Made by a program: the position numbers and the translations under genes
Shown: one piece after another, positions 31,818 to 57,302 of the stretch
How positions within the stretch are numbered: position 1 is the first letter of the stretch
Layout of the letters: every line of letters begins with the position of its first letter
Assembly: GCA_003132145.1 (NCBI GenBank)
Contig: PKWU01000076.1
Span: forward strand, 1 to 64,000
Source of the DNA: Granulicella sp.
Lineage (GTDB): Bacteria; Acidobacteriota; Terriglobia; Terriglobales; Acidobacteriaceae
DNA length: 64,000 bases
Direction of reading: 5' to 3'
Notes under the pieces: model-generated
What the model was told of the DNA's origin: nothing
Databases searched by the model: none
The model's input: the letters and a program-made list of their open reading frames with translations, nothing else

Positions 31818-32918
31818 TCAGTTCTTGGCCGCGCCACCGGAACGCGTGGCCCGCGCCTTCATTCGTGAGCGCAAGATGGGCAGCCGACGCGCCGCCCCGG
31901 TAGATTCGCGCACCATCAGTTCCGGCTCAAACGTCACCATCTCAGGATATGCCTCGTGGGGAAACTGGATCCGGTGCAGCAGCATCTGCGCCGCAGTTTC
32001 TCCCATTCGGTGCAGAGGCTGCCTCACGGTCGTCAAGCTCGGCGTTTGGTACATGGCGCTCGCGATGTCGTCGAAGCCAACCACCGAGAAGTCTTTTGGG
32101 CAGGAAAAGCCGGCGTCCGCCAGGGCTCGCACCGCGCCAATTGCCGCAATATCGTTGAAGCAAAAGATCGCGGTGAAGTCCTGCGTCCTCTTCAAAAGGT
32201 CACGCACAATCGGATACCCAAGCTCCGGCGACCAGGAATTCTTCTCCAGATACATGCAGAGTTCCGGGAAGATCGTTATGCCCATCTTCCGCGCAATCGA
32301 CGCAATGCTCTCCCAACGCGTATCCGAGTCCAGCGCATGGCGCTGGCCCTTCATAAACGCGATTCTCCGATGGCCCAGTTCATACAGATGCTTCAATGCG
32401 AGGGTTGCCGAGCGGTCATGGTCCAGGACCACGTTGGTCACGCCGGGCATGCGCCGATGCCCGGAAATCGACACCACCGGCTGATTCACCGGCTCGTTCA
32501 AGGAAGTATTGACCAGCAGGAACCCATCGACAGAGCGCTTCAGCAACATCCTCGGATATTCATCGATAAGGTCCGTCCGGCCTTGGTGGCAAACCACATA
32601 ATGCAGGTAGCCCGCCTGCATCAGAGACTGCTCCACGCCGTTCATCACCATTGTGAAGTAGCCTTCGCTGAACTCCGGCACGATCACACCGATCGTAAAG
32701 GTCTGCCGGGTACGCAGGGAGCGGGCAATTGTGTTCGGCCGATAGTCCAGTTTCTTGGCGGCCGCCAGCACCCGGTCGCGCGTAGCTAGCGTAATCGATT
32801 TAGCACCGGGGGCGTTATTCATGACCAGCGATACCGTCGCCGGCGAGAGATCGAGATACTCTGCCAACACCTTCAAGTTAACCGGTTTGTCATCGAGCCG
32901 CTCAGTCTTCCGTGTCAT
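31818..32918 (-). CDS. LacI/PurR-family transcriptional regulator
   Basis: The 366-residue protein has an N-terminal helix-turn-helix (LKVLAEYLDLSPATVSLVMN, about 14-34), hinge helix (DYRPNTIARSLRTRQT) and a periplasmic-binding-like sensor domain (TIGVIVPEFSEGYF, NVVLDHDRSATLALKHL, AIFCFNDIAAIGAVRALAD, VVGFDDI). It probably represses the neighbouring polysaccharide genes and responds to a released sugar. A dyad GTA-TCAGTTG-TAC immediately upstream of its ATG suggests autoregulation. It is the only specific regulator within the cluster. Confidence 0.92.
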   Translation of the reverse strand: MTRKTERLDDKPVNLKVLAEYLDLSPATVSLVMNNAPGAKSITLATRDRVLAAAKKLDYRPNTIARSLRTRQTFTIGVIVPEFSEGYFTMVMNGVEQSLMQAGYLHYVVCHQGRTDLIDEYPRMLLKRSVDGFLLVNTSLNEPVNQPVVSISGHRRMPGVTNVVLDHDRSATLALKHLYELGHRRIAFMKGQRHALDSDTRWESIASIARKMGITIFPELCMYLEKNSWSPELGYPIVRDLLKRTQDFTAIFCFNDIAAIGAVRALADAGFSCPKDFSVVGFDDIASAMYQTPSLTTVRQPLHRMGETAAQMLLHRIQFPHEAYPEMVTFEPELMVRESTGAARRLPILRSRMKARATRSGGAAKN

Positions 32919-32922
32919 CGCG

Positions 32923-32940: not shown

Positions 32941-33032
32941 CCCTGACGCTACCTCGGAACAGGTGAATCGAGCCGGCGGGCGATCCGTTGGCACATATTG
33001 CTCGCTGTCAAGGCTGGTTGCGCGCCGTTGCA

Positions 33033-35543
33033 TCAAGCAGAAGGACGCGGCACAACCGCTTTCGTGGCGATTCGCAGCGTCGTCGACGGCAACTTCGGCC
33101 CCGGCCAGTCTTCCGTATACGCTTCCACCACGATCGTTCCCGGAGTCTTGGTCGCCTGCACGATCACCTGCGCCAACCCGTTGAACAGGCTCCGCCTCGG
33201 CTCCTTGTCCGATTCCTGGCAGTTGGGATCGCCATTGCCCACACCGATCAGCGCACCCTCGCCGCTGACCTTGAAGCTGATCTGATCCTCCGCCGTAGGC
33301 ACGCTTCGCCCCGCATCGTCCAGCACCTCGACGCGCAGCATCGCAACGTCTTCTCCGTCGGCATCGATATCCATCCGATCTGCCGTAAGCTTGATAGTCG
33401 CCGCATTGCCTGTCGTCTCGCGCCGTTCGGTCAACACTACCTTGCCATCCTTGCTGCCCCGCGCTTCGATCGCACCCGGCTCGTATTTAATCTTCCACTC
33501 CAGGTGCCCCAGCGGCAGCACCTTCTTGCTGCCCAGGCTCTTTCCGTTCAGAAACAGCTCCACCTCGTCCAGGTTGGAGTGGACCCATACCGGCACGATC
33601 TCTCCCACCCGCTCTTCCCAGTTCCAGTGCGGGAAAAGGTGCAGTACCGGATCGGCGCCCCACCAGGCCTTGTAGTAGAAGTAGTTGTCCTTGGGAAAGC
33701 CGCACACGTCCACGATGCCGAACTGCGAGTTAATCGACGGCCACCCATAAGGAGTCGGCTCGCCACGATAGTCGAAACCAGTCCACGCAAACCCGCCGGC
33801 AAGCCACGGGCGCGCCGCATAGAACTGCCACCACTCCTCGGCAATCTCGGACCATTGCGTGTGATTTACGTCGTACGCGCTGACCCAGTTGCGCAGCTTG
33901 TCCGTCGAGTAGATGCCGCGTGTCGACACGGTACTCGCCGTCTCCGTGCCGATCGAAGGCTCCTTCGGATGCGCTGCATGGTACGCATCAATGTCCTTCA
34001 GCGTGTAGTTGAATCCCTCAACATCCAGCGACCTCGCCACGTTGTTGTTGAACGGCGAGGTCGTCGCCGCCGTGCACAAACGCGTCGGATCGAGCTCGTG
34101 CGCGCGCGCCACCATAGCCGCCACCACATGCTCGCCATGCTCGGTCGATTGCAGCGGCCACTCTTCGTTGCCCACGGACCACAGGATAATCGCCGGAGAG
34201 TTCCGGTAGCGCTTCACCATCAGCTCCAGTTGCGTCAGTCCTTCGGGATTGGAACTCATCATGCGTGTCTCGCACAGCATCATCATGCCCATGCGGTCGC
34301 AGGCTTCCACCCACTCCGGAGTCGGCATGTTGTGCGAAGTGCGCACAGCATTCGACCCCATCTCCTTCAACACCGCAAGCCGAAACCACTGCAGCCGGTC
34401 CGGCAACGCGGCGCCAACACCGGCGTGGTCCTGGTGGTTGCAGGTCCCCTTGATCTTTACCGACTTTCCATTGAGAAAGAAGCCCTTGTCCGCATCGAAC
34501 AGAACGCTCCGCACGCCGAACTGAACCCGCTCTGCATCTCGCGCTTTGCCGTCCGCCTCGACAGTCACCGTCGCCGAGTGCAACTCCGGCGACTCGAGAG
34601 ACCACAGCGCCGGATTCGCGATCGTCGCCGTTGCTTCGAAGCTCCTCGCGCTACCGGCTATAATGATTTGCGGCGAGGCGTCCGCGGTCGCAACCGATTT
34701 GCCCGTCGCATCGAAAATCTGCCAGTGGACGCGACAAGTCTCTGCCTGCAGGCCTTCGTTTTGCACAATTGTCCCCAGGCTCAGAGTTGCCGAATTGCCC
34801 TTGGTTTTGTTGTTAATGATCTCTGTACGAACGTAGCTCTCCCACTGGCCAAGGTGCAGCGCGTCGCTCTTGGTCAGCCACACATGCCGGTAGATGCCGG
34901 CGCCCTCGTAGAACCAGCCGTCGCCGAAGCTCGCGTCCATGCGAACAACCAGAAAGTTCTTATCGCCGTAGTTGATGAAGTCGGTCAGATCGAAGCTGAA
35001 AGGAGCATAGCCGTTGTCGTTTCTGCCAATGAAGTATCCGTTCAGAAAGACCAGCGCGTCGCGGAACCCGCCGTCGAACTCAATCGACACTCGACGCCCG
35101 CGATCGCTCTCCGGAATCTCAATCGCACGGCGATACCAACCCACGCTGGTCTCCGGATAGCGGCGGCCGAGTGGCTTGTAGCCGTGCCCCTGCAACGCCT
35201 CGTCATGCACGAACGGCAATTCCACCGCCCAGTCATGCGGTAGATTCAGCGAGCGCCACTTCGAATCGTCGAACTTTGCCGTGGCAAAGTCGAAACTCCC
35301 TGACTTGGCAAAGTCTCCCTGCCCCGCGCCAAAGCCGAGATCGCGGTACGGATCGCTGCCATGGCCCTGAAAGAACTTCCAGCCAAAATCGAGTAGCAAT
35401 CGCTCGCGCGGAGCAACGGCCGCTACAGCCGAACTCGCTTCGGCCAGCGCCGCGGCGCGCGCTATTGCGCTCCCAGGGAAAAAAGTGGACGCGACAGACG
35501 CGGCCCCGCAATAAATCAGAGTACGGCGAGTTAGTAATGGCAT
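33033..35543 (-). CDS. GH2 beta-galactosidase, exported
   Basis: The 836-residue protein has a Tat-like signal (LTRRTLIYCGAASVAS then AIARA). A sugar-binding jelly-roll follows (RLLLDFGWKFFQGH, LNLPHDWAVELPF, DGGFRDALVFLNGYFIGR), then the immunoglobulin-like middle domain and the TIM barrel with IKGTCNHQDHAG, SHNMPTPEW, acid/base Glu in ILWSVGNEEWP and nucleophile Glu in SIGTETAST. C-terminal Ig-like domains follow. In a xyloglucan pathway it would remove galactose from side chains. ATG 35543 has GGGGAGA 10 nt upstream. It lies 26 bp after the GH31 gene on the same strand. Confidence 0.9.
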   Translation of the reverse strand: MPLLTRRTLIYCGAASVASTFFPGSAIARAAALAEASSAVAAVAPRERLLLDFGWKFFQGHGSDPYRDLGFGAGQGDFAKSGSFDFATAKFDDSKWRSLNLPHDWAVELPFVHDEALQGHGYKPLGRRYPETSVGWYRRAIEIPESDRGRRVSIEFDGGFRDALVFLNGYFIGRNDNGYAPFSFDLTDFINYGDKNFLVVRMDASFGDGWFYEGAGIYRHVWLTKSDALHLGQWESYVRTEIINNKTKGNSATLSLGTIVQNEGLQAETCRVHWQIFDATGKSVATADASPQIIIAGSARSFEATATIANPALWSLESPELHSATVTVEADGKARDAERVQFGVRSVLFDADKGFFLNGKSVKIKGTCNHQDHAGVGAALPDRLQWFRLAVLKEMGSNAVRTSHNMPTPEWVEACDRMGMMMLCETRMMSSNPEGLTQLELMVKRYRNSPAIILWSVGNEEWPLQSTEHGEHVVAAMVARAHELDPTRLCTAATTSPFNNNVARSLDVEGFNYTLKDIDAYHAAHPKEPSIGTETASTVSTRGIYSTDKLRNWVSAYDVNHTQWSEIAEEWWQFYAARPWLAGGFAWTGFDYRGEPTPYGWPSINSQFGIVDVCGFPKDNYFYYKAWWGADPVLHLFPHWNWEERVGEIVPVWVHSNLDEVELFLNGKSLGSKKVLPLGHLEWKIKYEPGAIEARGSKDGKVVLTERRETTGNAATIKLTADRMDIDADGEDVAMLRVEVLDDAGRSVPTAEDQISFKVSGEGALIGVGNGDPNCQESDKEPRRSLFNGLAQVIVQATKTPGTIVVEAYTEDWPGPKLPSTTLRIATKAVVPRPSA

Positions 35544-35569
35544 TTGAGCTTTATCTCCCCTGCACAACG

Positions 35570-38377
35570 TTAGTGAACAGCAATAGTCAGTTGCTTTCCT
35601 GCGTAAACCGCACTGGCTGACAGGGCCGGCGATGAAGACGCAGGCGAAGGATGCCCCGGCGCCACCAGCACGATCCGCAGATGATCCTCTGCGGGCATGT
35701 CGGGATACCCTCCCTTGCGGTCGCCGACGGTCAGTATGCGGTCGCGATCGTTCCAATGCAGCGGAATCTCCGCGAAGGCGCCCTTCTCATACCCGAAAGT
35801 GAGGCCGTCGTCCCGATACAGCGTGAAGTCAGCATCCGCGCCGCTGTAAATATACAGCGTCAATGGATCGGCCGTCTTTTCCGACACATATTGCAGGTCA
35901 GGGCCCATGGGCACGATGGACCCGGCGCGCACAAATAGAGGAATAGCGTCGTACGGCGCGGCCGCGGTGGCTTCGCCGGCCGCAACTGATTTGCCCGTCC
36001 AAAAGTCGTACCACTGCGCGGCGGGCGGCAGGTAGACTTGGCGTTCGCGCGCCTTGTAGGTCGTGATCGGAGCGACCAGCAGCGCCGGGCCAAACAGATA
36101 TTCGTCGGTCAGTTCACGCGCCTTCGCGTCACCGGCGAAATCCATCACCAGCGGCCGCATCAACGTCGCATCGTGCTGCGTCACCGCGCCAGCGAGCGAA
36201 TAAATATATGGCAGCATGCGATAGCGCAACTGATCGAACTTCAGCTCAGCCTGATACGCGGGAGAGCTTTCGTCTCCCAGCGTCCACATTTCGCGAGACC
36301 GCAGCTCTCCATGCACGCGCAAGAGCGGAGTAAAGGTGCTCAGTTCGAACCAGCGAACGTTCAGTTCGCGCCACTCCTCCGCGTCCGCGGGCTTCATCGG
36401 CTCGGCCGCGAAACGCTGCTGCATCGTGTAGCCGCCTGTATCCATGGTCCAGTAGGGCAGTCCCGAGATGCTCATCCCGAGTGCCGCAGGAATCTGCTTG
36501 GTGAGCGCTGTCCAAGTCGAGGTTATGTCTCCCGACCAGGTGACTGTCGAATACCGTTGCTCGCCGGCATATCCCGAGCGGGTGAGGATGAACACTCGCT
36601 GATTCTCTGCGGCCGGATGCTCGGCTGAATCCGATGCGCGCTGGCCGCTGTAGACGCCATCGCTGTTCATCAGCGCGTATCCGTTCAGCACCTCCGCGCC
36701 GGTGCCAATTGCCGTTGGGCTCAAATGCGCGCGTTGGGCGGCAATCGTTGGAGGCGATGGCAAAAGGTCCGGTTCGCTCGCATCCATCCACCACGCATCC
36801 ACGCCCTTGCTGAAGAGCCCCTTGTCGATCTGCGACCAGAACAGCTTTCGCGCCTCGGGATTGAACGCGTCGTAGAAGCTGTAGGGATAACCGATCCAGT
36901 CCAGCAGATGCTCATCGAGGTTTGGCTTGTAAAGGAAACCGCGCTTCTGCATCTCTTTGCCGTTCGCGGTCTCCGGATTGAACTTACCCCACACCGAGAT
37001 CATCAGATGCGCATGCAGGTCGTGAATCTGGCGGATCCAGCCATCGGGATCGGGAAAGCGCGTGGGGTCGAACTCGTGCGAGCCCCAGGAGTCAGGACGC
37101 CAGTATTGCCAGTCCTGAACGATGGCGTCGAATGGTATTCTTCTGCGGCGAAACTCGCTGACTACGTCGAGACTTTGCTGCGCCGTCTCATATCGCTGGC
37201 GCTACTGCCACAGTCCGAAGACCCAGTTCGGCAACATCGTTGCCTTGCCGGTCAGGGTGCGGAAACCCGCGATCACATCGTCGATGCGCGGCCCATACAG
37301 GAAGTAATAGTCCACGCCGCTGCCCGCCTCGGACCACAAGGATGTGTCGTTGCTCGCCGCGGGCGTCTTCCACTCAAAGTGCATGGTGGACTGCTGCTCG
37401 GCGTCTGTCTCCACTGCGACCGTGTACCGTTTACCGGCCTCCATCGGGAGCCGAACCTGGTCATATTCAGTCAGCCAGTTCTGCCGCCAGTGGTTGATAA
37501 CCAGCTTCCCATCCAACCATACCTTGATGCCGCCGTTCGAGTAGGTACGGAATTGATACATCCCGGTTGAGGGGGCTTCGATTGACCCCTCCCAGCGCAG
37601 GCTGCGCAGAGCCTGTCGACCGCCCGGCGGAACGTCGATCACCGGTATTGACGCGGGCGACAGCAGTACAGTCGAGCCAATCACATGCAGCGACAGCCCA
37701 CCCCGCGTGCCCTCGCGATTCAGAAGCGCGCTTGCGGGCACCGGCACGAACGGCCGCAAATCGCCGAACCGCGTGAATGAGAGGTTGTCCCAGAAGATTC
37801 CATAGCCTCTGCTTGACACCAGCAGTGGAACGACGACATTCGTATTGCGTTGCCAGAGGTCCAGGTCGTATCCCTTGATGTCGACGGTCCCAAGTTGTTG
37901 CTGACCGAGTCCGAACAGCGACTCGTCTGGATTGGCCGTCCACATCTGCGCCACATGTCGTTCTGCGTGTCCATCTACCATCGCCGCTTCGATCGTGCGG
38001 CCGTCCTGTCTTTCTGCCAGGACCTCGCGACCGCTTTTATCGAGAAAGCGCACGCGGGCGGTATGTTTGTCGATCTCAACTCGAAGCTTGCTTGTCTCGA
38101 GAATGGCCAGATTGGCTGTCTCGTTCAACGTCCACGCGGACTGAACACCCGCAAGTGGAACGATAGCCGGAGAACTTTGCGGAAGAGAGGAGGGGGTTCT
38201 GGCGAAGGAAACGCGGACGAGTGCAGCGCCAACCACACGGACACGCAAGGTGCCCGAACTGGTCTGGAGCTGCACCCCGTCGGGCTGGCGCGTAATGGAC
38301 TGAGCCAACCCTTGGGCTGAAGTCAATGCCGTGGCAACCGCAGCGGCCGTCGCCCATCGTCGAATCCACAGGATCAT
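35570..38377 (-). pseudogene. GH31 alpha-xylosidase with PA14 domain, interrupted by one in-frame TAG
   Basis: One reading frame of 936 codons runs from a signal peptide (MILWIRRWATAAAVATALTS) to the stop at 35570 and is broken only by TAG at 37202-37204. The N-terminal part has a GH31 galactose-mutarotase-like domain, an inserted PA14 domain (GSIEAPSTGMYQFRTYSNGG, WLDGKLVINHW) and DYYFLYGPRIDDVIAGFRTL. After the TAG the same frame continues RQRYETAQQSLDVVSEFRRR, PFDAIVQDWQYW, nucleophile Asp in DAWWMDASEPD and acid/base Asp in TWSGDITSTW. PA14-bearing GH31 enzymes act on xylosylated xyloglucan oligosaccharides. The expected residue is probably Ser or Cys. GGAG precedes the ATG. Confidence 0.88.
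37202..37204 (-). other. In-frame amber codon within the GH31 gene
   Basis: Context on the minus strand is CTG TGG CAG TAG CGC CAG CGA TAT. Frame, codon use and domain order continue on both sides, so a single base change (TCG or TGC-type codon to TAG) or a sequencing error explains it. No stem-loop suggesting programmed readthrough was noticed. Confidence 0.85.
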
Positions 38378-38518: not shown

Positions 38519-40786
38519 ATGTACAGAAGACAAGAAACTGATCCAGTCCCTCTTTCCCCACGTCATTTTCGTTGGAGCCGGTTTTGGAAACGGCTCGATT
38601 GGCTGCCTGCTCTGCTGCTCTTCGCCGCAACAGTACATGCCCAGCAGCAACCGGCGCAACCGTGGATGGATTCCGCGCTTCCCGCTGAACAGCGCGCACA
38701 TTTGGCGCTGCAAGCCATGACCCTCGATGAAAAACTGCAATTAGTGCATGGAACTGGCTGGGGAGTGCTGCGCGACGGCGACCCAGTCGCTCCCGGGCAC
38801 AACGGCGGCGCCGGATTCGTTCCGGGCATTCCACGCTTGCATATTCCGGACATCAATCTCGCCGATTCCGCCGTCGGTATTCGCATGGCGGCGCGGGAGA
38901 GCCGCTATGCCACGCTGCTGCCGTCGGCGCTCGGCCTGGCCGCCACCTGGGACCCTGACGCGGCATACCTGTACGGCTCGGTCATCGGACGAGAACTGCG
39001 CGATCAGGGCTACAACATGTCCATCGGCGGCGGCGTCAACCTGATGCGCGAGCCGCGCAACGGGCGAAACTTTGAGTATGCAGGCGAGGACCCGCTGCTC
39101 GCCGGCACCGAGGTTGGGAACCTGATACGCGGTGTTCAGTCCAACCAGATTATCGGCGACGTCAAACACTACGCGCTCAATGACCAGGAAACCGGCCGAA
39201 ACACGATCAATGTCCTGTTGAACCAGCGCGCCATGCGGGAGACGGACCTCCTGGCATTCCAAATTGCCATCGAAATCGGCCATCCCTTAGCCGCCATGTG
39301 TTCCTACAACCGCATCAACGGCGACTACGCGTGCGAGAACAGTTACACATTGAAGGATGTCCTCAAGCACGATTTCGGCTTCAAAGGCTTCGTCCTCTCC
39401 GATTGGGAAGGCACACATAGCACTACAAAGGCTGCACTTGCAGGTCTCGATATGGAACAGCCCGGATCAGATTTCTTCGGCAAGTCGCTGCTACAGGCTG
39501 TCGAGAACGGATCGGTGCCTCGGTCGCGTCTTGACGATATGGCCGAAAGGGTGCTCTACAGCTTGTTTGCCTCGGGCGCCGTCGATCATCCTCCCGTGCG
39601 GCGCGTCGTAAATCCCTTTCTCGGGCTCAAGGATGCGCAGCACATCGCGGAAGAGAGCGTTGTTCTGCTGCAGAACGAGAAGCAGGTATTGCCGCTCAAC
39701 AAGAATCAGAACGGCATCATCGCCATCATCGGATCGCATGCCGACGTCGGCGTTCTCTCGGGCGGCGGTTCGGCACAGGTCGACGCGCCGGGCGGAAATG
39801 CGATCGATGCGAGCGAGGGCGCGGCCGTATGGGGTAAACCGGTTTACTTCCCGTCGGCTCCTTTGCAATTCGTTTGCGAGAAAGCGCCTCATGCAAACGT
39901 GCTGTTTGATTCCGGCGACAACCTGCAAGCGGCAACCACACTCGCCGCCAAAGCGGATATCGCTATCGTGTTCGTGCATCAATGGATGACTGAGGGGCAG
40001 GACGCTGCCAGCCTGTCCTTGCCCGAAAAGCAGGACGCTTTAGTCGAAGCAGTCGCGACCGCAAACAAGAAGACGATCGTAGTCTTGGAGACAGGCGGCC
40101 CCGTGAGTATGCCCTGGGCCCCGCGGGTAGCGGCCATTCTCGAGACTTGGTATCCCGGCATTGGCGGTGGAGAGGCAATCGCGAACATTCTCTTTGGCGA
40201 TGTCAACCCCTCCGGTAAACTCCCTGCAACCTTTGCCCGCCAGGATGCCGACCTGCCGTATCCTCATGTCCCGGCCTTGACGGAAGCCACCGGAAATAAT
40301 GGCATGAATGCGCACGCCGACGGGACGAAGTCCGAACCTGAGTCTGCTACCGTCGACTACAACCTGCAGGGTCTGAAGGTCGGGTATAAGTGGTTTCAGA
40401 CGGAGCACAAACAGCCGCTCTTCGCCTTCGGTCACGGCCTTTCGTACACCAACTTCGCCTACTCCGCTTTGCAGTGCGACTCGCCATCAAAGGCCGTGAC
40501 ATTTCAGATTCAAAACACAGGACAACGTAGCGGAGATGAGATCGCCCAGGTCTACGCGACGCTTCCAGCTTCCTCCGGTGAACCCTTCCGCCGCCTGGTA
40601 GGGTGGAAGCGCGTGGCCCTGGCCCCCGGAGAGACAAGAATGGTTTCGATTACGCCGAATCCTGCCTTAATGTCCGTCTTTGATGTGAAGTCCGACAGCT
40701 GGAAGCTGGAACCGGGGATGTATCGCATTGAAGTCGGCGCTGCATCGGATGATTTGAAGCTGCAGACGACGGTCGGGCTTCCGTAA
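38519..40786 (+). CDS. GH3 beta-glucosidase, exported
   Basis: The 755-residue protein has an N-terminal signal-anchor (LPALLLFAATVHAQQ, about 29-43). A GH3 barrel follows (MTLDEKLQLVHGTGWG, GVNLMREPRNGRNFEYAGED, VKHYALNDQETGRN, nucleophile Asp in GFVLSDWEGTHS), then the alpha/beta sandwich (EESVVLLQNEKQVLPL, GQDAASLSLPEKQDALV) and a C-terminal fibronectin-like domain (GDEIAQVYATLPASS, GWKRVALAPGE). It should release glucose from the non-reducing end of cello-oligosaccharides in the periplasm. It is divergent from the GH31 gene over a 141-bp promoter region containing CCGGTACCG. CAGGTGAAAC precedes the ATG. Confidence 0.93.
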   Translation: MYRRQETDPVPLSPRHFRWSRFWKRLDWLPALLLFAATVHAQQQPAQPWMDSALPAEQRAHLALQAMTLDEKLQLVHGTGWGVLRDGDPVAPGHNGGAGFVPGIPRLHIPDINLADSAVGIRMAARESRYATLLPSALGLAATWDPDAAYLYGSVIGRELRDQGYNMSIGGGVNLMREPRNGRNFEYAGEDPLLAGTEVGNLIRGVQSNQIIGDVKHYALNDQETGRNTINVLLNQRAMRETDLLAFQIAIEIGHPLAAMCSYNRINGDYACENSYTLKDVLKHDFGFKGFVLSDWEGTHSTTKAALAGLDMEQPGSDFFGKSLLQAVENGSVPRSRLDDMAERVLYSLFASGAVDHPPVRRVVNPFLGLKDAQHIAEESVVLLQNEKQVLPLNKNQNGIIAIIGSHADVGVLSGGGSAQVDAPGGNAIDASEGAAVWGKPVYFPSAPLQFVCEKAPHANVLFDSGDNLQAATTLAAKADIAIVFVHQWMTEGQDAASLSLPEKQDALVEAVATANKKTIVVLETGGPVSMPWAPRVAAILETWYPGIGGGEAIANILFGDVNPSGKLPATFARQDADLPYPHVPALTEATGNNGMNAHADGTKSEPESATVDYNLQGLKVGYKWFQTEHKQPLFAFGHGLSYTNFAYSALQCDSPSKAVTFQIQNTGQRSGDEIAQVYATLPASSGEPFRRLVGWKRVALAPGETRMVSITPNPALMSVFDVKSDSWKLEPGMYRIEVGAASDDLKLQTTVGLP

Positions 40787-48111: not shown

Positions 48112-49710
48112 CTACTTGTTGGCCCGACCGCGCGCCAGCTTGACGAGCACAATGTCGTTGCTGTTCATCGGCACAGAAAACTCGACGGTGCCCGTGGGCC
48201 CACTTCGCATCACCTTGTCTGTCTCCGGCAGATCCCGCGTCAACTCCTTCAGATGCGCAATCTGCGCTGGGGTCAATTCCTTGGGAGAGCCCATCTCGAT
48301 GTATGCAGAATAAGCATCGTTGGCGTGATACCCAACGCGACGTACTTCCAGGCGGTAGGCAGTATTCGGCACAAGATGCGTTAACTGTAGATGTACGGGC
48401 GCCGCCGGATGCGCGGGAATCACCTTTGTATAAAAGGGCCGATTGCTGACCTTCTGATCCGGCTGCTCGAAGTCCCAAATGACAGCCGTGACGTTTCCCT
48501 CCTTCGCAGAGAGCATTGCCTGAGGATCGCTCGTGGCCAAGCTCTCTCCCTGGAGTGCGTGAAGGTACTTGTAAGCGAAGAACGCCGGCTTGCGAATTCC
48601 CTGCGGGTTCAGGAGCCCGAATCCTCCTTGAAATGGCGCCGTCGGAGGTCCGGGTTCCTCGAACAGATCGGTGTAGGTCCAGTAGCTCATGCCCTGCACC
48701 AACCCCTGGCTGGCTTTGAGCTTGGTCAGGATGTAGGGTGCGCTGATGTAGGAATCGTGAACCGCGTCGCGCGGCGTATAGCTTGTGCTCCACTCGGAAA
48801 AGTACAGCGGAAGCCCCGGAAATGGTGAGGCCGAAATCTGCTCGCGAACACGCCGCACGTCACCGACGATCGCGTTTGGTGACGGATCGAGCTTTGTATC
48901 GGATTTCCCCTCTTCATCGAGAAAGCCTCCTTGAACGCCATACGTATGCGTGGTTACGAAGTCGACGGCGGCACCGCTTTGCTTGACGTGCGCCAGGAAT
49001 TCGGGGATCCAGGCCGCTCCGGCGGTCGAGGGCCCTCCCACTCGCAAAGCGGGATCGACGGACTTGATCGTCTTCGAGGTCAGATCGTAGAGTTCGAAGT
49101 ATGCCTTCTGATCTCCACCTTCCCAGAATCCGGAGAGGTTGGGTTCGTTCCAGACTTCGAAAAACCAGGTATGCACTTCGTCTCTTCCGTACCGAGCTTC
49201 GATGTGTCGGATGAAAGCATCGATGAGGTCGCGCCAACCTTCCGGTCGGGGATGAGATGTGTTGCCCTTCCAATAAAAGATGCTGTTCTCAGAGGTGGCA
49301 AGCGCCTTCGGAGTGAACCCTAGTTCGACGAACGGCCGGATGTGCCGGGCCAGCAAGTCGTCATATAGTTGGTCAATCTTCGACCAGTTGTAGACGGTCT
49401 TCCCATCTTCGATGCGCACTGTACCTAACACGTCGTGAAAGATAGCGTGGAATCTTACATAGCGAAAACCAAGCTCGTCGGCGGTCGTCTTGAGTTGGGC
49501 CTGGCTGTCATCACGAATCAGTGTGCCTGGATAATCGGACCCAACCGACAGATCGAAGAAGCGATCCACCGGCCCAGTCGGTTGGTCGAGATTCACGACA
49601 ATGGTTCGGGATGGAGCCTGTTGCGATTGAGCAGCAGGAGACAAGACGGATGAAGCCACCAAGAAACCGGTGGCAAGGATTGAAAATCGCCTCAGAAGTG
49701 AACTAAACAC
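48112..49710 (-). CDS. GH39 beta-xylosidase-like enzyme, exported
   Basis: The 532-residue protein has a signal peptide (ending LSPAAQSQ near 30) and a TIM barrel with GFRYVRFHAIFHDVLG, acid/base Glu in FFEVWNEPNLSGFW, THTYGVQGGF and nucleophile Glu in YFSEWSTSY. A C-terminal beta-sandwich (APVHLQLTHLVPNTAYRLEV) follows. GH39 includes beta-xylosidases and iduronidase-like enzymes. Here it could process xylose-containing oligosaccharides, although its exact substrate is not readable. It precedes the GH44 gene by 110 bp on the same strand. Confidence 0.87.
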   Translation of the reverse strand: MFSSLLRRFSILATGFLVASSVLSPAAQSQQAPSRTIVVNLDQPTGPVDRFFDLSVGSDYPGTLIRDDSQAQLKTTADELGFRYVRFHAIFHDVLGTVRIEDGKTVYNWSKIDQLYDDLLARHIRPFVELGFTPKALATSENSIFYWKGNTSHPRPEGWRDLIDAFIRHIEARYGRDEVHTWFFEVWNEPNLSGFWEGGDQKAYFELYDLTSKTIKSVDPALRVGGPSTAGAAWIPEFLAHVKQSGAAVDFVTTHTYGVQGGFLDEEGKSDTKLDPSPNAIVGDVRRVREQISASPFPGLPLYFSEWSTSYTPRDAVHDSYISAPYILTKLKASQGLVQGMSYWTYTDLFEEPGPPTAPFQGGFGLLNPQGIRKPAFFAYKYLHALQGESLATSDPQAMLSAKEGNVTAVIWDFEQPDQKVSNRPFYTKVIPAHPAAPVHLQLTHLVPNTAYRLEVRRVGYHANDAYSAYIEMGSPKELTPAQIAHLKELTRDLPETDKVMRSGPTGTVEFSVPMNSNDIVLVKLARGRANK

Positions 49711-50180: not shown

Positions 50181-53100
50181 TTACTGGCTGTCAGCGTAGG
50201 CGATCCCTCGTCCCCCGGTTCCGATGTAGAATCTGCCGAAAGTCCGTGCGTCGCCGACAATCTGATTTACAGTACCCAATAAGTGAGCCGGATTGCTGAC
50301 ATTGACCCATGTGAGACCATTATCTATGGAGCGATAGAAGCCATACCCTGAAGCGCCAATTGCAGCGGTATAGACAGCCGGCATGGAGTAGGCAGGGGTG
50401 GCGCTACTGGTCGCCGGGGCGCCAACACCGACAGCATACGCCTGGGTGAACGACCCGGCTTTCGTAAGCGTCGTCCCGGCGTTCGTTGAATAATACACGC
50501 CGTTAGCGGAAGCAAGGCTTGACCCATTGATAGCGAGCCAGATGTTGCCGGCTCCTCCAAACGAAGCGGTCAGTTGCCCCGGCGAGTTAGCGGGCAAGGT
50601 CGACTGTGTGTTGAAGGTCAGGCTGCATTTGAAAGCATTGGCACTTGTCACCGGGCTCACCGTCGCGACCCCCATCAACAGCTTGCCTGACGTGGAGTCG
50701 TACATATAGTACTGCCCGGGCGTGACGCGATCGGAGACAACCTGGGCACCGATGATTCCGTTGACAGCCGGTGTCCATGTGTTGCCGCCGTCTCCTGAGC
50801 AGGCCGGCGGAAAATCAACGGTCGCCCAGACGATCGACGAAGCGTCGGCCGCGATGGCCACTGTGCCGCCGCCTAAGCTGAACTTGGTCGTGGGGGTGAC
50901 GCTTTGCAGATTAGCCGCGTCAGAGAGGGCGGGATATCCTACCCACGCATCTTGGGCACCCTGGGTAGCGGTGGTGGCCAGAAGCAGCGGGACTTGTACC
51001 TGGGTACATGTGCTTCCGCTAGGAGTGGGGGGGCAGAGCACAGGCGCCCCGCCGCCGGTTGGAGTGTAATACGACGGAGCGGTGGTGGAATAGCCAGTGG
51101 TACCATTAACTCCCGTACCCACTCGGACCACCGTCAGCGACGCGTTCTGCGCAAAGTCCACGCTCGTGCCGTTCGTGAAGACTGGAGCGGAATCCGCGCC
51201 CTCCACAGGGGACAGGTCGAGCGAAATATGAACGAAGGTACCCACATCGGTACCCACATCACCGTCAGCGCTAAGAAGCGGCGCCCCAGTCGGCGGACTG
51301 GAGATTGCGTTAACAACGGCCTCTTCAATACCGCTGCCGCCGTCCACCTGCTGGACCCCCGATGGCGCCGAGCCGTAGGCTCCTACGCTAAAGATGGGCT
51401 GCTGATTGATGTCGATGGCCAGAAGATCCTGCGTGTCCCAAAGCGTATCGCTAGTACCGAAGACCGCGTGGTTGGAATTGAAGGGATCGATCGCCAGAGC
51501 GGAGGGCCAGGTCTCTATTGCTACCTGCTTTGCCACGGCTCCGGGGCTGAGCCACGGCGCAAACGCCACGTCATTGACGGATTGGCCCTTTTGATCGGCG
51601 ATCTTCCATGTCTGGCCATAGTTCAGGCTGCGATAGATGGCGTCGCCGTTGGTGGTGTCGTCGATGGTGGAAACCATGATGATCCCAGGAAGTTCGGCGT
51701 CCAGCGTAATGCCGCTATATCCGCCGACGTCGGTGCTGCTGCGAACGGAGCTGGGGCTGATGTTCGTCCACGTTCCCGGCCCGTTCGGTGTACCGACAGT
51801 GGGGGTATATTCGTAGACGGCCCCGGCGCCTGCATTGCCGAGGAGACCTGAATTGTTTGTGAGTGGCCCCTCGTCGCTGAAATAGGTGATATAGAGCGAA
51901 CCCTGGCTATTGCTGACGCCGTCCGGCCCAAAGACTGCATGGATGGGTGTGAGGTTATAGTTCGCTGGAGTTGATCCGCCACTAGAAATCGGTGGAGGCT
52001 CGTTTGGGATCGCTTGCCAGGTTGCGCCGGAGTCTACGCTGCGGTAGATGCTCGAATAAACGGGCGTTCCATTGTTGCTTCCGTTGGCGTTGTAGTAGTT
52101 ATAATCCGACACTCCCGCGTAGAGAACCGGTGTCGCCGTTCCCGATACTCCACTGCTCGGATTGAAGATAATGAACACCACGCCGGCCCCTGCCGTCTTG
52201 CCGGTCACGGGGAAGGTTGTGACCTGGTTCCAGGTCATGCCGCGATCCAGGCTCTTCCATAGACCCGCTGTGCGGGACCCATAATAGATGGTAGTTCCAA
52301 GATTTGGATCTACGGCAAAGCGTTCGCCTGCATCTCGCCCGTTGTCGTTGCCATTGATGGGAAACGGTGCGTTCACCTGGGTAAACGTGGCACCCTGGTC
52401 GTCGGAGAGGTAAAAGTGGTTCTGCTGGGTGGGGTCATTGTTGTAGTTCAGCCCGGTGCTTAGATAAAGCCGCTGCGGGTCACTTGGATCCAGGCCAAGC
52501 GACTCCACTCCCATGTCGCCTGCATTCGCGCGTCCCAGGAAGTCCAGCAGGGGCACCCAGTAGCCGCATTCCAAGAACTCGGCATTGTTGCCCTTGGCCG
52601 CAGTTTGCGTCCCGTCCGCCTTTACATATCCCGGGCAAGTGGCCGTTGCTCCCGTGGTTGTCGTGGTGCCTTCCTTCACCCATCGGTACGCTCCGCCCAC
52701 ATCGGTCCGGACATAGCGCAAATATTGCTGCATAGGATGAAAGAAGACACCATCTATATACCCCCCGCCGACGATTTGCACCGACTCTGGAACGAGCGCG
52801 GCCAGACCGGCTGAGGAAGTGGGACCGAGTACATTGATCTGCACCGAATCTTTGGTGACTGCATAATGCGTCGTGTCGTTCGGCGTAAACGTAACTGACA
52901 GCGTCTGCGTGCCGGGACTGAGCAATGTGCCCTCAGCGGGGCTGTAGACGAAGGTGCCGGGAGTGTCCGCCGTTGCGTTCAGTTCTGCCGGACCCAGCGG
53001 GGTGGTGCTGAGGATGGTGCCAAAGACCGTCGGTGCAGGCGCTGCGGGAATCACCGGGTCGGGATTCGTCGGATCGGGGGCGGGTGGGACAAAGGACTGC

Positions 53101-53258
53101 GCCGGCCCGTTGGTATTCCACAATATCTGGGCGGGCTGCGGCGTAATGCCCACTTTGTTGTCGTACTGTGCAGCGCAGCCGGCAAGACCGAGTGAAACGA
53201 ACGATGCAAGAACCCAGACCATTGATGAGAGGCGGCGGGGGGAAGCTGTCATGAGCAT
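50181..53258 (-). CDS. GH74 xyloglucanase lipoprotein with N-terminal Ig-like domain
   Basis: The 1025-residue protein has a lipobox (LGLAGC, Cys28), a Pro-rich linker and an Ig-like domain (about 78-145; PADTPGTFVYSPAEGT-like). A GH74 double propeller follows from about 160. One catalytic Asp is D186 in YVRTDVGGAYRW; the second lies in the loop SADGDVGTDVGTFVH near 664, where the usual GD-x-G-x-F-x-H is lengthened by four residues through a 12-bp tandem duplication. BNR repeats (DQGATFTQ, DRGMTWNQ, DSGATWQ, GGNTWTP, DNGLTWVN) are intact. It probably sits on the outer membrane and attacks polymeric xyloglucan. It is next to the TonB-dependent receptor gene. Confidence 0.88.
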   Translation of the reverse strand: MLMTASPRRLSSMVWVLASFVSLGLAGCAAQYDNKVGITPQPAQILWNTNGPAQSFVPPAPDPTNPDPVIPAAPAPTVFGTILSTTPLGPAELNATADTPGTFVYSPAEGTLLSPGTQTLSVTFTPNDTTHYAVTKDSVQINVLGPTSSAGLAALVPESVQIVGGGYIDGVFFHPMQQYLRYVRTDVGGAYRWVKEGTTTTTGATATCPGYVKADGTQTAAKGNNAEFLECGYWVPLLDFLGRANAGDMGVESLGLDPSDPQRLYLSTGLNYNNDPTQQNHFYLSDDQGATFTQVNAPFPINGNDNGRDAGERFAVDPNLGTTIYYGSRTAGLWKSLDRGMTWNQVTTFPVTGKTAGAGVVFIIFNPSSGVSGTATPVLYAGVSDYNYYNANGSNNGTPVYSSIYRSVDSGATWQAIPNEPPPISSGGSTPANYNLTPIHAVFGPDGVSNSQGSLYITYFSDEGPLTNNSGLLGNAGAGAVYEYTPTVGTPNGPGTWTNISPSSVRSSTDVGGYSGITLDAELPGIIMVSTIDDTTNGDAIYRSLNYGQTWKIADQKGQSVNDVAFAPWLSPGAVAKQVAIETWPSALAIDPFNSNHAVFGTSDTLWDTQDLLAIDINQQPIFSVGAYGSAPSGVQQVDGGSGIEEAVVNAISSPPTGAPLLSADGDVGTDVGTFVHISLDLSPVEGADSAPVFTNGTSVDFAQNASLTVVRVGTGVNGTTGYSTTAPSYYTPTGGGAPVLCPPTPSGSTCTQVQVPLLLATTATQGAQDAWVGYPALSDAANLQSVTPTTKFSLGGGTVAIAADASSIVWATVDFPPACSGDGGNTWTPAVNGIIGAQVVSDRVTPGQYYMYDSTSGKLLMGVATVSPVTSANAFKCSLTFNTQSTLPANSPGQLTASFGGAGNIWLAINGSSLASANGVYYSTNAGTTLTKAGSFTQAYAVGVGAPATSSATPAYSMPAVYTAAIGASGYGFYRSIDNGLTWVNVSNPAHLLGTVNQIVGDARTFGRFYIGTGGRGIAYADSQ
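51237..51260. repeat. Perfect 12-bp tandem duplication at the GH74 active site
   Basis: GGTACCCACATC occurs twice head to tail. On the coding strand it doubles the four residues DVGT immediately after the predicted catalytic Asp. The neighbouring GH74 (42441-44681) has the single-copy arrangement GDIGGFRH. Confidence 0.9.
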
Positions 53259-53360: not shown

Positions 53361-56300
53361 CTAGAAGGAGTACTTGAAGCCCACTTCAACAATACGCAAG
53401 CTGGACTTGTATGGCGTCGAGCCAAAGTTGTTGCTGGTTTGCACCAGGCTAGCGCGCGCGGCCGCATCGGACGTCGGATAAATAATCGAGCCGCTCGGTG
53501 TTTTCTGCAGATTTTGTCCGAAGCCCAGGCCGAGCCCCGCAGCTGGACCACCATAGAGTTGCCAGTTGGGATGGTTCAGGAAATTGAACGCGGCCAGCCT
53601 GAACTGCATGCTCTGCTTTTCTTTGATATGGACATTCTTGATCAGGGTAAGGTCGGAATTGAAGTACATCGGGCCATGAATGTCCGGCAGCTTGAAGGAA
53701 CCATTTGTACCCGGAGCCGGCAGAGTGAAGCAACCCGCATTGATGAAGGTCTTCGCGCCGTTCTCGATACCGGGGAGATTGAACTTGGGATCGCAGGTAA
53801 TCAGAGGTTGAACCGCCACGCTGGGCGTTCCCAACTGGGTGATTGAGTCAAAGTTGACGCCGATGGGGACGGTGGTTCCAGCCGGCTCGTATTCATATCC
53901 GCCACCGAGGCCAAAGTTCGAGTTGAATGCCGCAACATCTGGACCGCTCTGAATCGCGGTGATGCCAGAGATCTCCCACTGATTCAAGACGCCGCCCACA
54001 ATCCTGTTGCCGTGATACTTCGTTCCTTCCTGGTAGGAGAAGGTAATATTGACGGCCTGTTTGCGGTTGTAGGGAAGCATCCCGTAATCGTTGCCCATAT
54101 TCAATGAATCGCCTACAGCACCGTTGCCCCCCGTGCCGCGGACGCCGAGCGCCTTGCTCCATGTGTAGTTCAAGTTATAGGTCAACGCTCCAGTCTGCTT
54201 GTTGAGACTTAATTGCATCGCGTTGTAGTTCGAATAGGAGATGTGATTTTCGACAATAATGTCCGTGTAGTTGGGATAAGGCCTCCAGTCCTCCTGATTG
54301 TAGTAACCCACGTCAAGGAAGTTGACGGGAGCGATGACACCATAATTCAGGGAGGAGGTATTGGGATCTGGCTTGTACATTCCGCCCAGCGGAATCGCAT
54401 TTTGGTTTGAAAGGTCGCGGTCGGCCCCATCTCCCCCCGTCAAAGCATGCTGCGTTTGGTTGCCGACATAGCTTATTTCGAGCAGGCTGCCATGGCCCAA
54501 CCGCTGGTCTACCGTGAAGTTATAGTTATAAGTGACCGGCTGTTCGCTGTCGTGCTTGTCCGCTGCATGGATCGAGAACGCGCTGTAGGTGTTGGTGGCA
54601 TTGTTGCCGCCACAGGTTTGGCCGATCAGATTCACAAACGGACCAGACCCGAGAGTCACCGTGGGCCGGCCGGCACTGATATCCCCCGAGTTGCCGACTT
54701 GAGCGAGGGTGCAGCCGCTAGCACCTCCGGGAGGGTTATAGGTCGCGACGCCGAGCGATGTCAGCAGCGGACCATCCGAGGTGTAATAGGAGTCGTGATA
54801 GCGATAAGCGCCCCAGCCTCCTCGAAAAGTAGTCTTGCCGTTCCCATACAGATCGTACGCAAGGCCGGCGCGCGGGGAGTAGAACATCGCTGTGCTGGGG
54901 CTTCCTGAAAGAGGAAGGCTGGAGTCCAGCGTGATGCCCTTTCCGTTGTGCCAGGCAATGCCGGGCCAAGTGGTGGGATCGTTGGGGTCCAGGCTGTACT
55001 GGATGTTTTGTTTGATCTTTTCCGGTTCCCACACCGCGAGGCCCTGGCCATGGGAATCCACCCACGGGCCGAGATGATCGAAGCGGACGCCAAAGGTCAG
55101 AGTAAGCCTCTTGGTAGCCTGCCAATCATCTGTGATGTAGCTGTCTATCGTCGTGTACTTCATGTCGCCACTTTGAAACTTGTTCACCTGCGTAAAGCTG
55201 CCGCAACCGTTCAGGAAGTTGCCTACATTGTTGCCTATAATGGTAGTGAGGCCGTAGGTCGAGGGGCCGGAACCGTAAACATTGCAATCATTGTACTGCG
55301 TGTAGCTCATGTTGCCCTGCGGATCGTTATACGATGCATCATACTCGTTGTTGGCGGCCTGCTCAGCATAGAAGCCCACCTTGATCGAGTGCCTCTGAAG
55401 CTGCTTCGTCAGGTTGTCCGCGGCGTTAATCGAATACTTGCGCTTGGGAGCGCCCCGGCTGGGGTCGAAGTAGCCCATGCCAAAGCCGGGAACGCCAGAT
55501 GAATAGCCGGTGTTCTCGGGCAGTTGCGTATACCCATTCTGGTAATAGCGGGGCCCGACAAATCCCGTGTTCGCATCCTGTAGCATGCTGTTGTTCTGGA
55601 GTTGCGCGGGAGAGTAAAAGTAGACGCCGGCGAATATGAGCTCGTTGGTCAGAGTAGGGCCAAATGTATGCGTATTGTTGATACTTAACCGGTGCGAGTG
55701 GGCGTACGTGAGTTCTCCTGTGGGCGAGGGGATGACGTCCCCGCCGCTGTAGCCGGTGCTACTGGTAGGGTTCTGATCGCTCACATGTTCGTAGTCATAG
55801 GTCACATAAAGCTTGGTGGCGTCGCTAAAGTTCTCGTCTACCCGGCCGTGGAACTGGTAGCCATTGTGCTGGGCAAAGATATTGGTGTCATAGTTGATGG
55901 TGTCGGAGCACATCTGGCCAGGTTTCGCGAGGGCTGTTCCCGTAACTTGATTCCAGAGCAATGACGGGTCCGTGCATGTGGCCGGCGAGATCCCCCCTTG
56001 AGGCTGCGGCACCCGATTGATCTTCGGATAGAAGCGCGTGTAGGCACTCACATTGGGGTCAAAGTCCGCAGCCGGAATTTGCCCGCCGATGATATCGTGC
56101 CCCTGGACGTCCACCGTATTGCTGGTGGGGGAATAAGCGCCTTGGAAGCCGTTGAGGGCTGTGCAGCCGTATGAGGTGGGACAGAGGGCGCGCGAGGCCC
56201 CGCTTGGAAGATTCAGCGCGCTTTCGATAGAATTCGTGCTGAGATCGCCGCTCAACATGCGCGCGGTGGGAATGAAACTAAGGGTTGCCGTATTGCCATA

Positions 56301-57302
56301 CAGGTTCCTCTGGTCGTATACCTCTCCAGCGGCAAAGAAGGTCATCTTCTTGCTGCGATTGAAGCCAGTGCCGGGGATCTTGACTGGACCGCCAACATTG
56401 GCACCGGGGAAGTAGTTGTAGGTGCCCGCACGCGGATTATTGAAATAATTATCCATCCAGTCGTTGGAGTTGAGGGCACTGTTGCGCGCATATCCGTAGA
56501 CGGAACCGTGATAGCTCGATGCACCCGACTTAGTGACGGCATTGATCACCACCGGTCCGTTGGCGGTGTCGGCACCGAAGTTCGACGTCTGGACCTTCAC
56601 CTCGGCGACCATCTCCATATTAATGTTACTCATCGAACTGGTGGCGTCGGCCGGGTCGGTTGTGCTGGCGCCGTCGGAGACGACCGCGACCGCGCCCGCG
56701 CCGGGGGCGGCGCCATTGGCTGCAAAGCTGCCAATCGAGCTGCCGCCGAATCCAGCGACCTGGCTGCCGTTGTTGGTGGAATCGTTATTGAGTCCTGCTG
56801 AAGCGACCGCAAAGCCGGGCAAGATACGAATCAGCTCGGTTGCATCGCGCCCTACGGTGGAGAGACGCTTGATGTCTTCCTCCGTGATGAGATAACTCTT
56901 CTCCGGCGAATCAAGTTCGACTCCGGCCACACTTGAGGTCACTGTGACCGACTCTTCAACCCTGCCGATCTTGAGCGTGATGTTTTCGATATTCCTGCTG
57001 TCACCCGGATCCATATGGATGCCCGTAATGACGTACGTCTCAAAGCCCTTGGCGGTCACATTCAGGTTGTAATCGCCCGACTGTACCGCTGCAAACGAGA
57101 AGAAAGCGCTGCTGCTGCTCATGCTCGAGCGCACCGACTTGTCGTCCCTGTTCACTAGCGTTATCTTCGCGCCGGGAACAATTGCGCCCGCGCTGTCTTT
57201 GACCACACCGGTCAGGGTGCCGGTCGTCTGGGCGAAAAGATGGTACGGGCCGAACAGCATGAGCGCCAAAGCGAGACCGGTCAGAAAGTGCTTCAAGTTC
57301 AT
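53361..57302 (-). CDS. Oar-like TonB-dependent receptor
   Basis: The 1313-residue outer-membrane protein has a signal peptide (MNLKHFLTGLALALMLFGPY..FAQ). A carboxypeptidase-regulatory-like domain follows (about 28-110; GTLTGVVKDSAGAIVPGAKI, YNLNVTAKGFE), then a plug (ITEEDIKRLSTVGRDATELI) and a large beta-barrel ending in VEVGFKYSF with terminal Phe. This architecture is common in Acidobacteriota and takes the role that SusC has in Bacteroidetes loci; no SusD-like gene is visible. It should import xyloglucan oligosaccharides with TonB energy. ATG 57302 starts the signal peptide; 16 extra in-frame residues upstream are not signal-like. A GH74 lipoprotein gene follows after 102 bp. Confidence 0.9.
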   Translation of the reverse strand: MNLKHFLTGLALALMLFGPYHLFAQTTGTLTGVVKDSAGAIVPGAKITLVNRDDKSVRSSMSSSSAFFSFAAVQSGDYNLNVTAKGFETYVITGIHMDPGDSRNIENITLKIGRVEESVTVTSSVAGVELDSPEKSYLITEEDIKRLSTVGRDATELIRILPGFAVASAGLNNDSTNNGSQVAGFGGSSIGSFAANGAAPGAGAVAVVSDGASTTDPADATSSMSNINMEMVAEVKVQTSNFGADTANGPVVINAVTKSGASSYHGSVYGYARNSALNSNDWMDNYFNNPRAGTYNYFPGANVGGPVKIPGTGFNRSKKMTFFAAGEVYDQRNLYGNTATLSFIPTARMLSGDLSTNSIESALNLPSGASRALCPTSYGCTALNGFQGAYSPTSNTVDVQGHDIIGGQIPAADFDPNVSAYTRFYPKINRVPQPQGGISPATCTDPSLLWNQVTGTALAKPGQMCSDTINYDTNIFAQHNGYQFHGRVDENFSDATKLYVTYDYEHVSDQNPTSSTGYSGGDVIPSPTGELTYAHSHRLSINNTHTFGPTLTNELIFAGVYFYSPAQLQNNSMLQDANTGFVGPRYYQNGYTQLPENTGYSSGVPGFGMGYFDPSRGAPKRKYSINAADNLTKQLQRHSIKVGFYAEQAANNEYDASYNDPQGNMSYTQYNDCNVYGSGPSTYGLTTIIGNNVGNFLNGCGSFTQVNKFQSGDMKYTTIDSYITDDWQATKRLTLTFGVRFDHLGPWVDSHGQGLAVWEPEKIKQNIQYSLDPNDPTTWPGIAWHNGKGITLDSSLPLSGSPSTAMFYSPRAGLAYDLYGNGKTTFRGGWGAYRYHDSYYTSDGPLLTSLGVATYNPPGGASGCTLAQVGNSGDISAGRPTVTLGSGPFVNLIGQTCGGNNATNTYSAFSIHAADKHDSEQPVTYNYNFTVDQRLGHGSLLEISYVGNQTQHALTGGDGADRDLSNQNAIPLGGMYKPDPNTSSLNYGVIAPVNFLDVGYYNQEDWRPYPNYTDIIVENHISYSNYNAMQLSLNKQTGALTYNLNYTWSKALGVRGTGGNGAVGDSLNMGNDYGMLPYNRKQAVNITFSYQEGTKYHGNRIVGGVLNQWEISGITAIQSGPDVAAFNSNFGLGGGYEYEPAGTTVPIGVNFDSITQLGTPSVAVQPLITCDPKFNLPGIENGAKTFINAGCFTLPAPGTNGSFKLPDIHGPMYFNSDLTLIKNVHIKEKQSMQFRLAAFNFLNHPNWQLYGGPAAGLGLGFGQNLQKTPSGSIIYPTSDAAARASLVQTSNNFGSTPYKSSLRIVEVGFKYSF

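Follow-up and report, generated by a model that had tools for sequence, protein, structure and literature searches.

In Xanthomonas, carbohydrate utilization (CUT) loci are defined by a gene for a TonB-dependent receptor (TBDT) lying beside genes for degradative enzymes, an inner-membrane transporter and a sugar regulator; in the available text of the source, no SusD-like protein was detected in Xanthomonas genomes and an Oar-like subclass of receptors is named (PMC1790865). The xyloglucan utilization locus (XyGUL) of Xanthomonas citri comprises, as far as the available text describes it, two TBDTs, glycoside hydrolases of families GH74, GH31, GH35 and GH95, an esterase and an adjacent gene of the major facilitator superfamily (MFS) (PMC8245568). 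GH74 is counted among the families of peat Acidobacteria in the available part of PMC6018796, and a literature search combining Acidobacteriota with xyloglucan, GH74, TonB/SusC and utilization loci brought up no study of a locus of this kind, judged by the listed results. Here we analyze a stretch of 64,000 nucleotides from an Acidobacteriota draft genome, Granulicella sp. (assembly GCA_003132145.1, contig PKWU01000076.1, positions 1 to 64,000; called the window below), in which the genes at 31.8-57.3 kb probably constitute a CUT-type xyloglucan locus that is damaged at its alpha-xylosidase gene, a member of GH31.

As in the CUT loci, the TBDT gene of this locus lies beside degradative enzymes and is accompanied by MFS and LacI-family genes, which presumably serve in transport and regulation. 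The SusD-like protein that marks the polysaccharide utilization loci of Bacteroidetes was not found: SusD_RagB (PF07980), the one SusD family searched, gave 0 matches in the whole genome, and the control, Bacteroides ihuae, was positive. An earlier note on this DNA, made from its letters alone, was right that a TBDT stands here in place of SusC/SusD. Its description of the locus as built in a way proper to Acidobacteriota has to be given up, because the layout is that of a proteobacterial CUT locus and the Xanthomonas XyGUL, in its available description, has the same outline. A SusD-less TBDT combined with an MFS importer is not peculiar to Acidobacteriota.

Gene content and the interrupted GH31 gene

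A Pfam domain scan of the window and phmmer searches located every family that had been named, that is, LacI, GH2, PA14-GH31, GH3, MFS, two GH74, GH44, GH39 and an Oar-like TBDT. Families and positions can be read directly from the sequence, and the E-values are so low that chance is no concern for the assignments. The gene order from 31.8 to 61.8 kb, in which GH3 is the only plus-strand gene of the named set, is as follows.

31818..32918, minus strand: LacI-family regulator, 366 aa (Pfam Peripla_BP_3 3.8e-32, LacI helix-turn-helix 7.7e-9)
33033..35543, minus strand: GH2 beta-galactosidase (GalA type), 836 aa (Pfam GH2 domains)
35570..38377, minus strand: GH31 alpha-xylosidase gene, interrupted (Gal_mutarotase, PA14, TIM barrel and DUF5110; Pfam, both halves)
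37202..37204, minus strand: in-frame TAG stop in the GH31 gene, codon 392 of 935, where the barrel begins and the sequence is conserved
38519..40786, plus strand: GH3 beta-glucosidase-like gene, divergent from GH31-GH2 (Pfam GH3 N, C and Fn3-like)
40810..42009, minus strand: MFS transporter, 399 aa (Pfam MFS_1 3.2e-20)
42441..44681, minus strand: GH74 xyloglucanase, GH74a (phmmer 2cn2 5.5e-178, 7kn8 1.2e-167)
44702..48001, minus strand: GH44 with three Big_3_5 Ig repeats (Pfam GH44 7.3e-50)
48112..49710, minus strand: GH39 beta-xylosidase-like gene, 532 aa (Pfam GH39 3.4e-92)
50181..53258, minus strand: second GH74, GH74b, diverged (phmmer 6mgj 1.3e-78)
53361..57350 (start 57302 or 57350), minus strand: Oar-like TBDT (Pfam OMP_b-brl_4 2.5e-118, CarboxypepD_reg, Plug)
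57429..61799 (open frame), minus strand: NHL beta-propeller/Big_3_5 protein adjoining the TBDT (Pfam NHL 1.9e-25, Big_3_5 6.2e-17)

The GH31 gene consists of two in-frame halves separated by the TAG, the first containing Gal_mutarotase and PA14 and the second most of the catalytic barrel (Pfam). The earlier gene list is accurate, apart from its presentation of this gene as one intact frame, in which the TAG had been overlooked. The next ATG, GTG or TTG past the TAG is at 37003, 66 codons on, so that a product restarted there would have lost the beginning of the barrel. Read across the TAG, the protein contains PA14 and both of the motifs to which we assign the catalytic aspartates, and its best solved relatives are the xyloglucan alpha-xylosidases 7kmp (E 7.7e-240), BoGH31A (5jou) and CjXyl31A (2xvg). 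No stop occurs in the tblastn alignments of homologues (0 of 80, the best 80 of 574 confirmed), and the interrupted position is a sense codon in all 79 relatives in which the motif was located (81 examined). The third-position content of guanine plus cytosine is 0.71 before the TAG and 0.72 after it, which means that any loss of the gene is recent or that the TAG is an error. The GH39 and TBDT genes also end in TAG, so that the codon acts as a stop here, and recoding was ruled out on that ground. On the given sequence the pathway of the locus is therefore incomplete, and the proposal of a complete xyloglucan pathway fails at the alpha-xylosidase.

Loss of GH31 from a related locus is seen in another genome of the genus, G009 (G, C and L denote genomes, contigs and loci), whose contig C54 carries an MFS gene, a GH74 and two GH3 genes with 38%, 43%, and 28% and 65% identity to those of the window, and TBDT remnants between MFS and GH74. 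Before the MFS gene lie pieces of a GH31 corresponding to residues 273-331, 533-643 and 640-907, in differing frames and with 7 stops in the last piece. Nothing clear was found for the residues before 273 or for 332-532, and the PA14 piece directly abuts the piece that starts just past the nucleophile motif. Decay at so many places indicates that this locus has lost its GH31 and that such loss happens. In a search of 61 genomes, distant GH31 matches with internal stops were found at G047:C263, G002:C3, G002:C2, G036:C5 and G024:C8 and in the G009 remnant, closer inspection covering G009 and G024. The sister locus in G034 (TBDT 94%, GH74b 82% and GH39 88% identical, the last over 179 residues) is on a contig that ends short of the GH31 position, and the top-scoring GH31 match in this 84%-complete genome, at 42% identity, is not an orthologue.

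Two other GH31 genes may be recorded here. The one at G024:C8 (L056 5411-7577), in a congener, is a different GH31, apparently split by frameshifts and stops, so that genes of this family may have decayed repeatedly within the genus. The metagenome-assembled genome SbA5, of a peat acidobacterium, has a PA14-type GH31 with 61% identity and no stop in the alignment, followed by a GH74.

Substrate, side-chain enzymes and alternative explanations

The main substrate is most likely xyloglucan, as had been proposed, because the locus holds two GH74 genes, a GH31 whose nearest relatives are alpha-xylosidases and a GH2 that matches GalA. Pfam gives only BNR/Sortilin repeat matches for GH74a and GH74b; both match solved GH74 xyloglucanases over most of their length, GH74b in three stretches. 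The GH2 scores 1129 bits with the NCBIfam GalA model NF041462 (cut-off 900) and its closest solved chains are GH2 beta-galactosidases, and the top solved relative of the GH3 is the beta-glucosidase 8j9f. Whether the GH44 is a xyloglucanase is uncertain from its sequence, the nearest solved relatives being 3ii1/3fw6, named cellulase (214 bits), followed by 2yih/2ykk (125/124 bits), of which 2ykk also carries a xyloglucanase label. Judged by eye against what we take to be the lipobox motif, the N-termini of GH44 and GH74b are lipobox-like and that of GH74a is doubtful. The Ig-repeat lipoproteins suggested earlier correspond to the GH44 protein, with three Big_3_5 stretches, and to the large NHL-repeat protein, with two.

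The solved relatives of the GH39 are beta-xylosidases (4m29/4ekj, 8i0x, 6uqj), and Glu189 (in NEP) and Glu306, invariant in 32 of 32 aligned sequences including that of the window, are its probable catalytic pair. Among 300 genomes of the family, close relatives (63-80% identity) occur in 10, the next ones being 46% identical or less. The ten loci from this search were grouped with those of the window, G034 and G036, which were known beforehand through the finding itself or GH74 searches, and compared with 20 of the next 22 ranked matches (G117 and G102 left out). At least one GH74, GH31, GH29, GH95, GH2, GH42 or GH44 gene lies within 8 kb at 10 of the 13 loci and at 1 of the 20 controls (p 3.0e-5). 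The GH42 query was picked after the neighbours had been viewed; with GH42 excluded the count is 9/13 (p 1.6e-4), and with the window and G034 removed as well it is 7/11 (p 8.6e-4). The ten loci from the GH39 search alone give 7/10 (p 4.2e-4), or 6/10 without GH42 (p 2.1e-3). Three loci (L147, L149 and L151) have none of these families, which counts against a xyloglucan role for the GH39; L149 has GH116 and GH59 instead, and L151 has GH1, GH5 and esterases. No GH10 or GH11 xylanase was found among the 20 proteins scanned at nine of the ten loci from the GH39 search.

Ericales contain xyloglucan with beta-1,2-linked xylose, which is cleaved off by BoGH43A, according to a source whose main text, as available, does not contain the word GH39 (PMC10952531). 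XacXynB, a solved relative of the GH39, frees xylose from X2-X6 xylo-oligosaccharides according to the available text of PMC7242879. The gene neighbourhood makes the GH39 group a candidate for removal of the beta-1,2-xylose of Ericales xyloglucan, which is a possible role; it is no less likely that the enzyme is an ordinary beta-xylosidase, because XacXynB acts on xylo-oligosaccharides. A dedicated xyloglucan GH39 is not claimed, since some members of the group are closely related to solved beta-xylosidases. Acidobacteriota rank with the most common bacteria of soils, and Ericales plants are common on many acid soils.

The locus contains no visible fucosidase gene, from which a non-fucosylated substrate had been deduced. 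That deduction does not hold, because the genome has three GH29 matches (one on C71, two on C73) and one match to the GH95 catalytic domain on C4 (78.8 bits against a cut-off of 27, partial profile), and the absence of a fucosidase from the locus says nothing about the substrate. Three of these four genes cluster with other GH31 genes. The order on C73 is GH29, a 119-aa frame, GH29, GH2 (62% identical to that of the window) and GH31; on C4, an acetylesterase-like SASA gene is accompanied, in the opposite direction, by a GH31, an esterase and the GH95-like gene. The GH31 proteins of C73 and C4, 38% and 42% identical to the interrupted one, keep both catalytic-aspartate motifs, and the best solved relatives of the C73 protein are again 7kmp, 5jou and 2xvg. 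In total there are 7 GH31 matches in the genome, C53, C4 (twice), C73, C78 and C48 being among the matches listed, and those of C78 and C48 are confined to the barrel part of the query. Of the three scanned copies, only the interrupted one has a recognizable PA14.

From these assignments we infer a scheme of uptake, regulation and compensation. Secreted or surface-anchored GH74 enzymes, perhaps with the GH44, would cut the polymer, and the oligosaccharides would enter through the Oar-like TBDT, of which the NHL/Ig propeller protein is perhaps a surface partner. The GH2 would trim galactose and the GH3 glucose, the MFS protein would carry small sugars into the cytoplasm, and the LacI protein would control the gene set. 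Because the GH31 gene of this locus, on the given sequence, would not yield a complete enzyme, xylose removal would need other GH31 genes, two of which are in the side-chain clusters on C73 and C4.

Several observations weigh against this interpretation. The genome is a draft of 89 contigs with 3.7% contamination, so that the TAG may have arisen in assembly or consensus calling or may represent a minor variant, and the GH31 frame shows no other damage, which fits an error or a very recent event. The C73 GH31 has no PA14 detectable by Pfam and the C4 GH31 is without that segment, so that these proteins may not replace the interrupted one. Intergenic stretches scanned for palindromes and shared 12-mers yielded no shared LacI operator; the imperfect palindromes found at 49967 and 61744 are isolated ones. 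Should the TAG be erroneous or come from a minor strain, the locus would be undamaged and the pathway proposed earlier would stand, apart from its fucosidase statement; this is a serious explanation, and a distinctly less probable one than damage. It would account for a single interruption in a 935-codon frame of near-equal composition on both sides, and for the lack of interruptions in the best 80 of 574 relatives, but errors in draft assemblies are not usually base substitutions, and the GH31 of the related G009 locus is decayed at several places, so that the genus does lose the gene. It is very improbable that the TAG is read through and some full-length GH31 made: the downstream half is intact, but TAG ends the GH39 and TBDT genes, and the two tRNA genes of the window, to which the search for a suppressor tRNA was confined, are for Ala and Ser.

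The explanations are not all exclusive of one another, and a general beta-glucan and hemicellulose locus has also to be considered, in which the GH44s and a GH5 would act on cellulose or mixed glucans and the GH39 on xylo-oligosaccharides, xyloglucan being one substrate of several. The contig (73,630 bases) extends to the right past the window, and a GH5 and a second GH44 are present there at L043 7767-8903 and 8999-11356, which correspond to about 67.8-71.4 kb when counted from the start of the window. Their identities to the GH5 and GH44 that accompany the TBDT-NHL-NHL set of G009 (L200) are 74% and 70%, which suggests a second, glucan-directed module. This pair, the cellulase names of the nearest solved relatives of the GH44 and the release of xylose from X2-X6 by XacXynB (PMC7242879, available text) favour the broader role, but two GH74 genes and a xyloglucan-type GH31 in one locus, and the xyloglucan-type neighbours of the GH39 group, make it rather unlikely. 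A CUT-type xyloglucan locus damaged at its alpha-xylosidase gene is the explanation that we prefer.

The TBDT and its NHL neighbour

The NHL/Big_3_5 gene adjoining the TBDT, whose true start is perhaps near 61538, has relatives elsewhere. A search of 41 genomes including that of the window (E-value limit 1e-40; no more than 15 candidates scored in each genome) added 8 copies, which are spread over 7 loci in 4 genomes, and a TBDT of the OMP_b-brl_4 type adjoins the NHL gene at all 7 (six identified by searches with the TBDT of the window, one by Pfam at a contig edge). Polysaccharide-degrading enzymes are nearby at 6 of the 7, namely, GH74 (G006:C123), GH44 and GH26 (G003:C4), GH16 with CBM6 (G003:C2 and G019), GH44, GH5 and GH1 (G009:C83), and GH3 and GH39 (G006:C131); the two further genes scanned at G009:C35 belong to the respiratory chain. 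The order of the two genes varies, the NHL gene preceding the TBDT gene in the window, G034, G006:C131 and G009:C35 and following it in G006:C123, G003:C4, G003:C2, G019, G009:C83 and G297.

NHL-family frames lie within 200 bp of a same-strand TBDT in 10 of 14 cases, against 23 of 1335 other frames of at least 250 aa at the same loci; because some of these loci had been chosen for GH74, GH39 or TBDT, the 7 of 7 is the cleaner number. The four non-adjacent frames are the second NHL of L200 (beside the first), L180 (cut at the fetched edge), L191 (3.2 kb from a TBDT) and L201 (about 1.1 kb from a TBDT that is truncated at the contig edge, missed by the TBDT profile and recognized by Pfam). The converse does not hold, an NHL partner being present at 9 of 17 high-scoring TBDT frames. 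Two TBDTs of the same subgroup without NHL occur with TPR and FG-GAP/ASPIC (UnbV) genes at L202 (G022:C1) and with FG-GAP/ASPIC at L203 (G001:C2), and sugar-nucleotide genes are also found at both; the FG-GAP/ASPIC genes are perhaps a different TBDT partner system.

A structural model of residues 1-900 of the NHL protein (mean predicted local distance difference test score, pLDDT, 76; predicted template-modelling score, pTM, 0.50) is read as two propellers with Ig-type parts and is silent on ligand binding. The 50 Foldseek matches listed for it include designed six-blade propellers, PknD, LRP-type and Sevenless receptors and Bacteroides sensor domains, with no SusD among them. By eye, the C-termini of 7 of 9 NHL proteins have two hydrophobic stretches with a basic cluster between them, a C-containing motif and a TPxG segment, a pattern that may be an anchoring signal. 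We put forward, as a tentative and still doubtful idea, that the NHL/Ig protein and the OMP_b-brl_4 receptor are an Acidobacteriota counterpart of SusD-SusC, a glycan-capture complex in which a propeller would replace the helical SusD and which would be reused in xyloglucan, other beta-glucan and mannan loci. The SusD-like role of the NHL protein is hypothetical and drawn from gene neighbourhoods; the pairing itself may be a feature peculiar to Acidobacteriota, and a literature search found no paper on NHL repeats with TonB-dependent receptors in this phylum. If the pair is a capture complex, it would provide a simple genomic marker for polysaccharide loci of Acidobacteriota and a defined protein pair.

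The two proteins of about 640 aa each that follow on the right of the NHL gene of the window (62182-64000, continuing to L043 4083; L043 4215-6170), 36% identical to each other, had no Pfam match; close to the TBDT and NHL genes of G003:C4 there is a protein related to them (34%). The left flank of the locus contains ThiG (30406-31176), an rRNA adenine dimethylase (28064-28891) and a GH106 alpha-L-rhamnosidase (24834-27854), the last separated from the locus by other genes. No NCBIfam model exceeded its cut-off for the LacI regulator. Overlaps of the GH2/GH31 and GH44/GH39 frames in the open reading frame list are artefacts of mechanical starts, later starts abolishing both.

Comparison with known xyloglucan loci

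Among the best relatives of the window enzymes are 7kmp (GH31) and 7kn8 (GH74), both of which we take to be Xanthomonas enzymes. The Xanthomonas citri XyGUL, in its available description, has the TBDT, GH74, PA14-GH31, MFS and non-Bacteroidetes layout in common with the window (PMC8245568). It differs in that GH35 occupies the place of GH2; the window locus includes GH3 and LacI genes, two GH74 with GH44 and GH39, and an NHL/Ig protein beside the TBDT, its GH31 is interrupted, and the fucosidase and acetylesterase-like genes of this genome are on other contigs. The Xanthomonas citri acetylesterase was first annotated as a sialate acetylesterase (PMC8245568), which may be compared with the SASA gene on C4. 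The CUT loci of Xanthomonas campestris belong to another phylum, and no NHL partner is mentioned in the available text (PMC1790865).

Like the window, the XyGUL of Cellvibrio japonicus has a TonB-dependent receptor, a GH31 alpha-xylosidase and a beta-galactosidase, and its pathway is completed elsewhere in the genome; as far as the available text goes, it has GH35 and GH95 instead of GH2, and is without an endo-xyloglucanase, beta-glucosidase or regulator (PMC4285296, in the main text of which the word SusD is absent). A bgl35A mutant of this bacterium has a severe growth defect on xyloglucan, ‘likewise’ its partner mutant xyl31A (PMC4285296, available text), and the latter defect would be the possible cost of GH31 loss if nothing compensates. 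The window locus offers a SusD-less uptake layout like that of Xanthomonas, with the genes of one pathway scattered across the genome and with local decay of the alpha-xylosidase seen in a relative. The endo-enzymes of the Bacteroides ovatus XyGUL belong to GH5 and GH9, and to our knowledge that locus has no GH74. It resembles the window in having a TonB-dependent receptor and endo- and exo-enzymes for each linkage, with BoGH31A as a close relative of the interrupted protein, and differs, in the available text, in its two cell-surface binding proteins and hybrid two-component regulator (PMC4285296).

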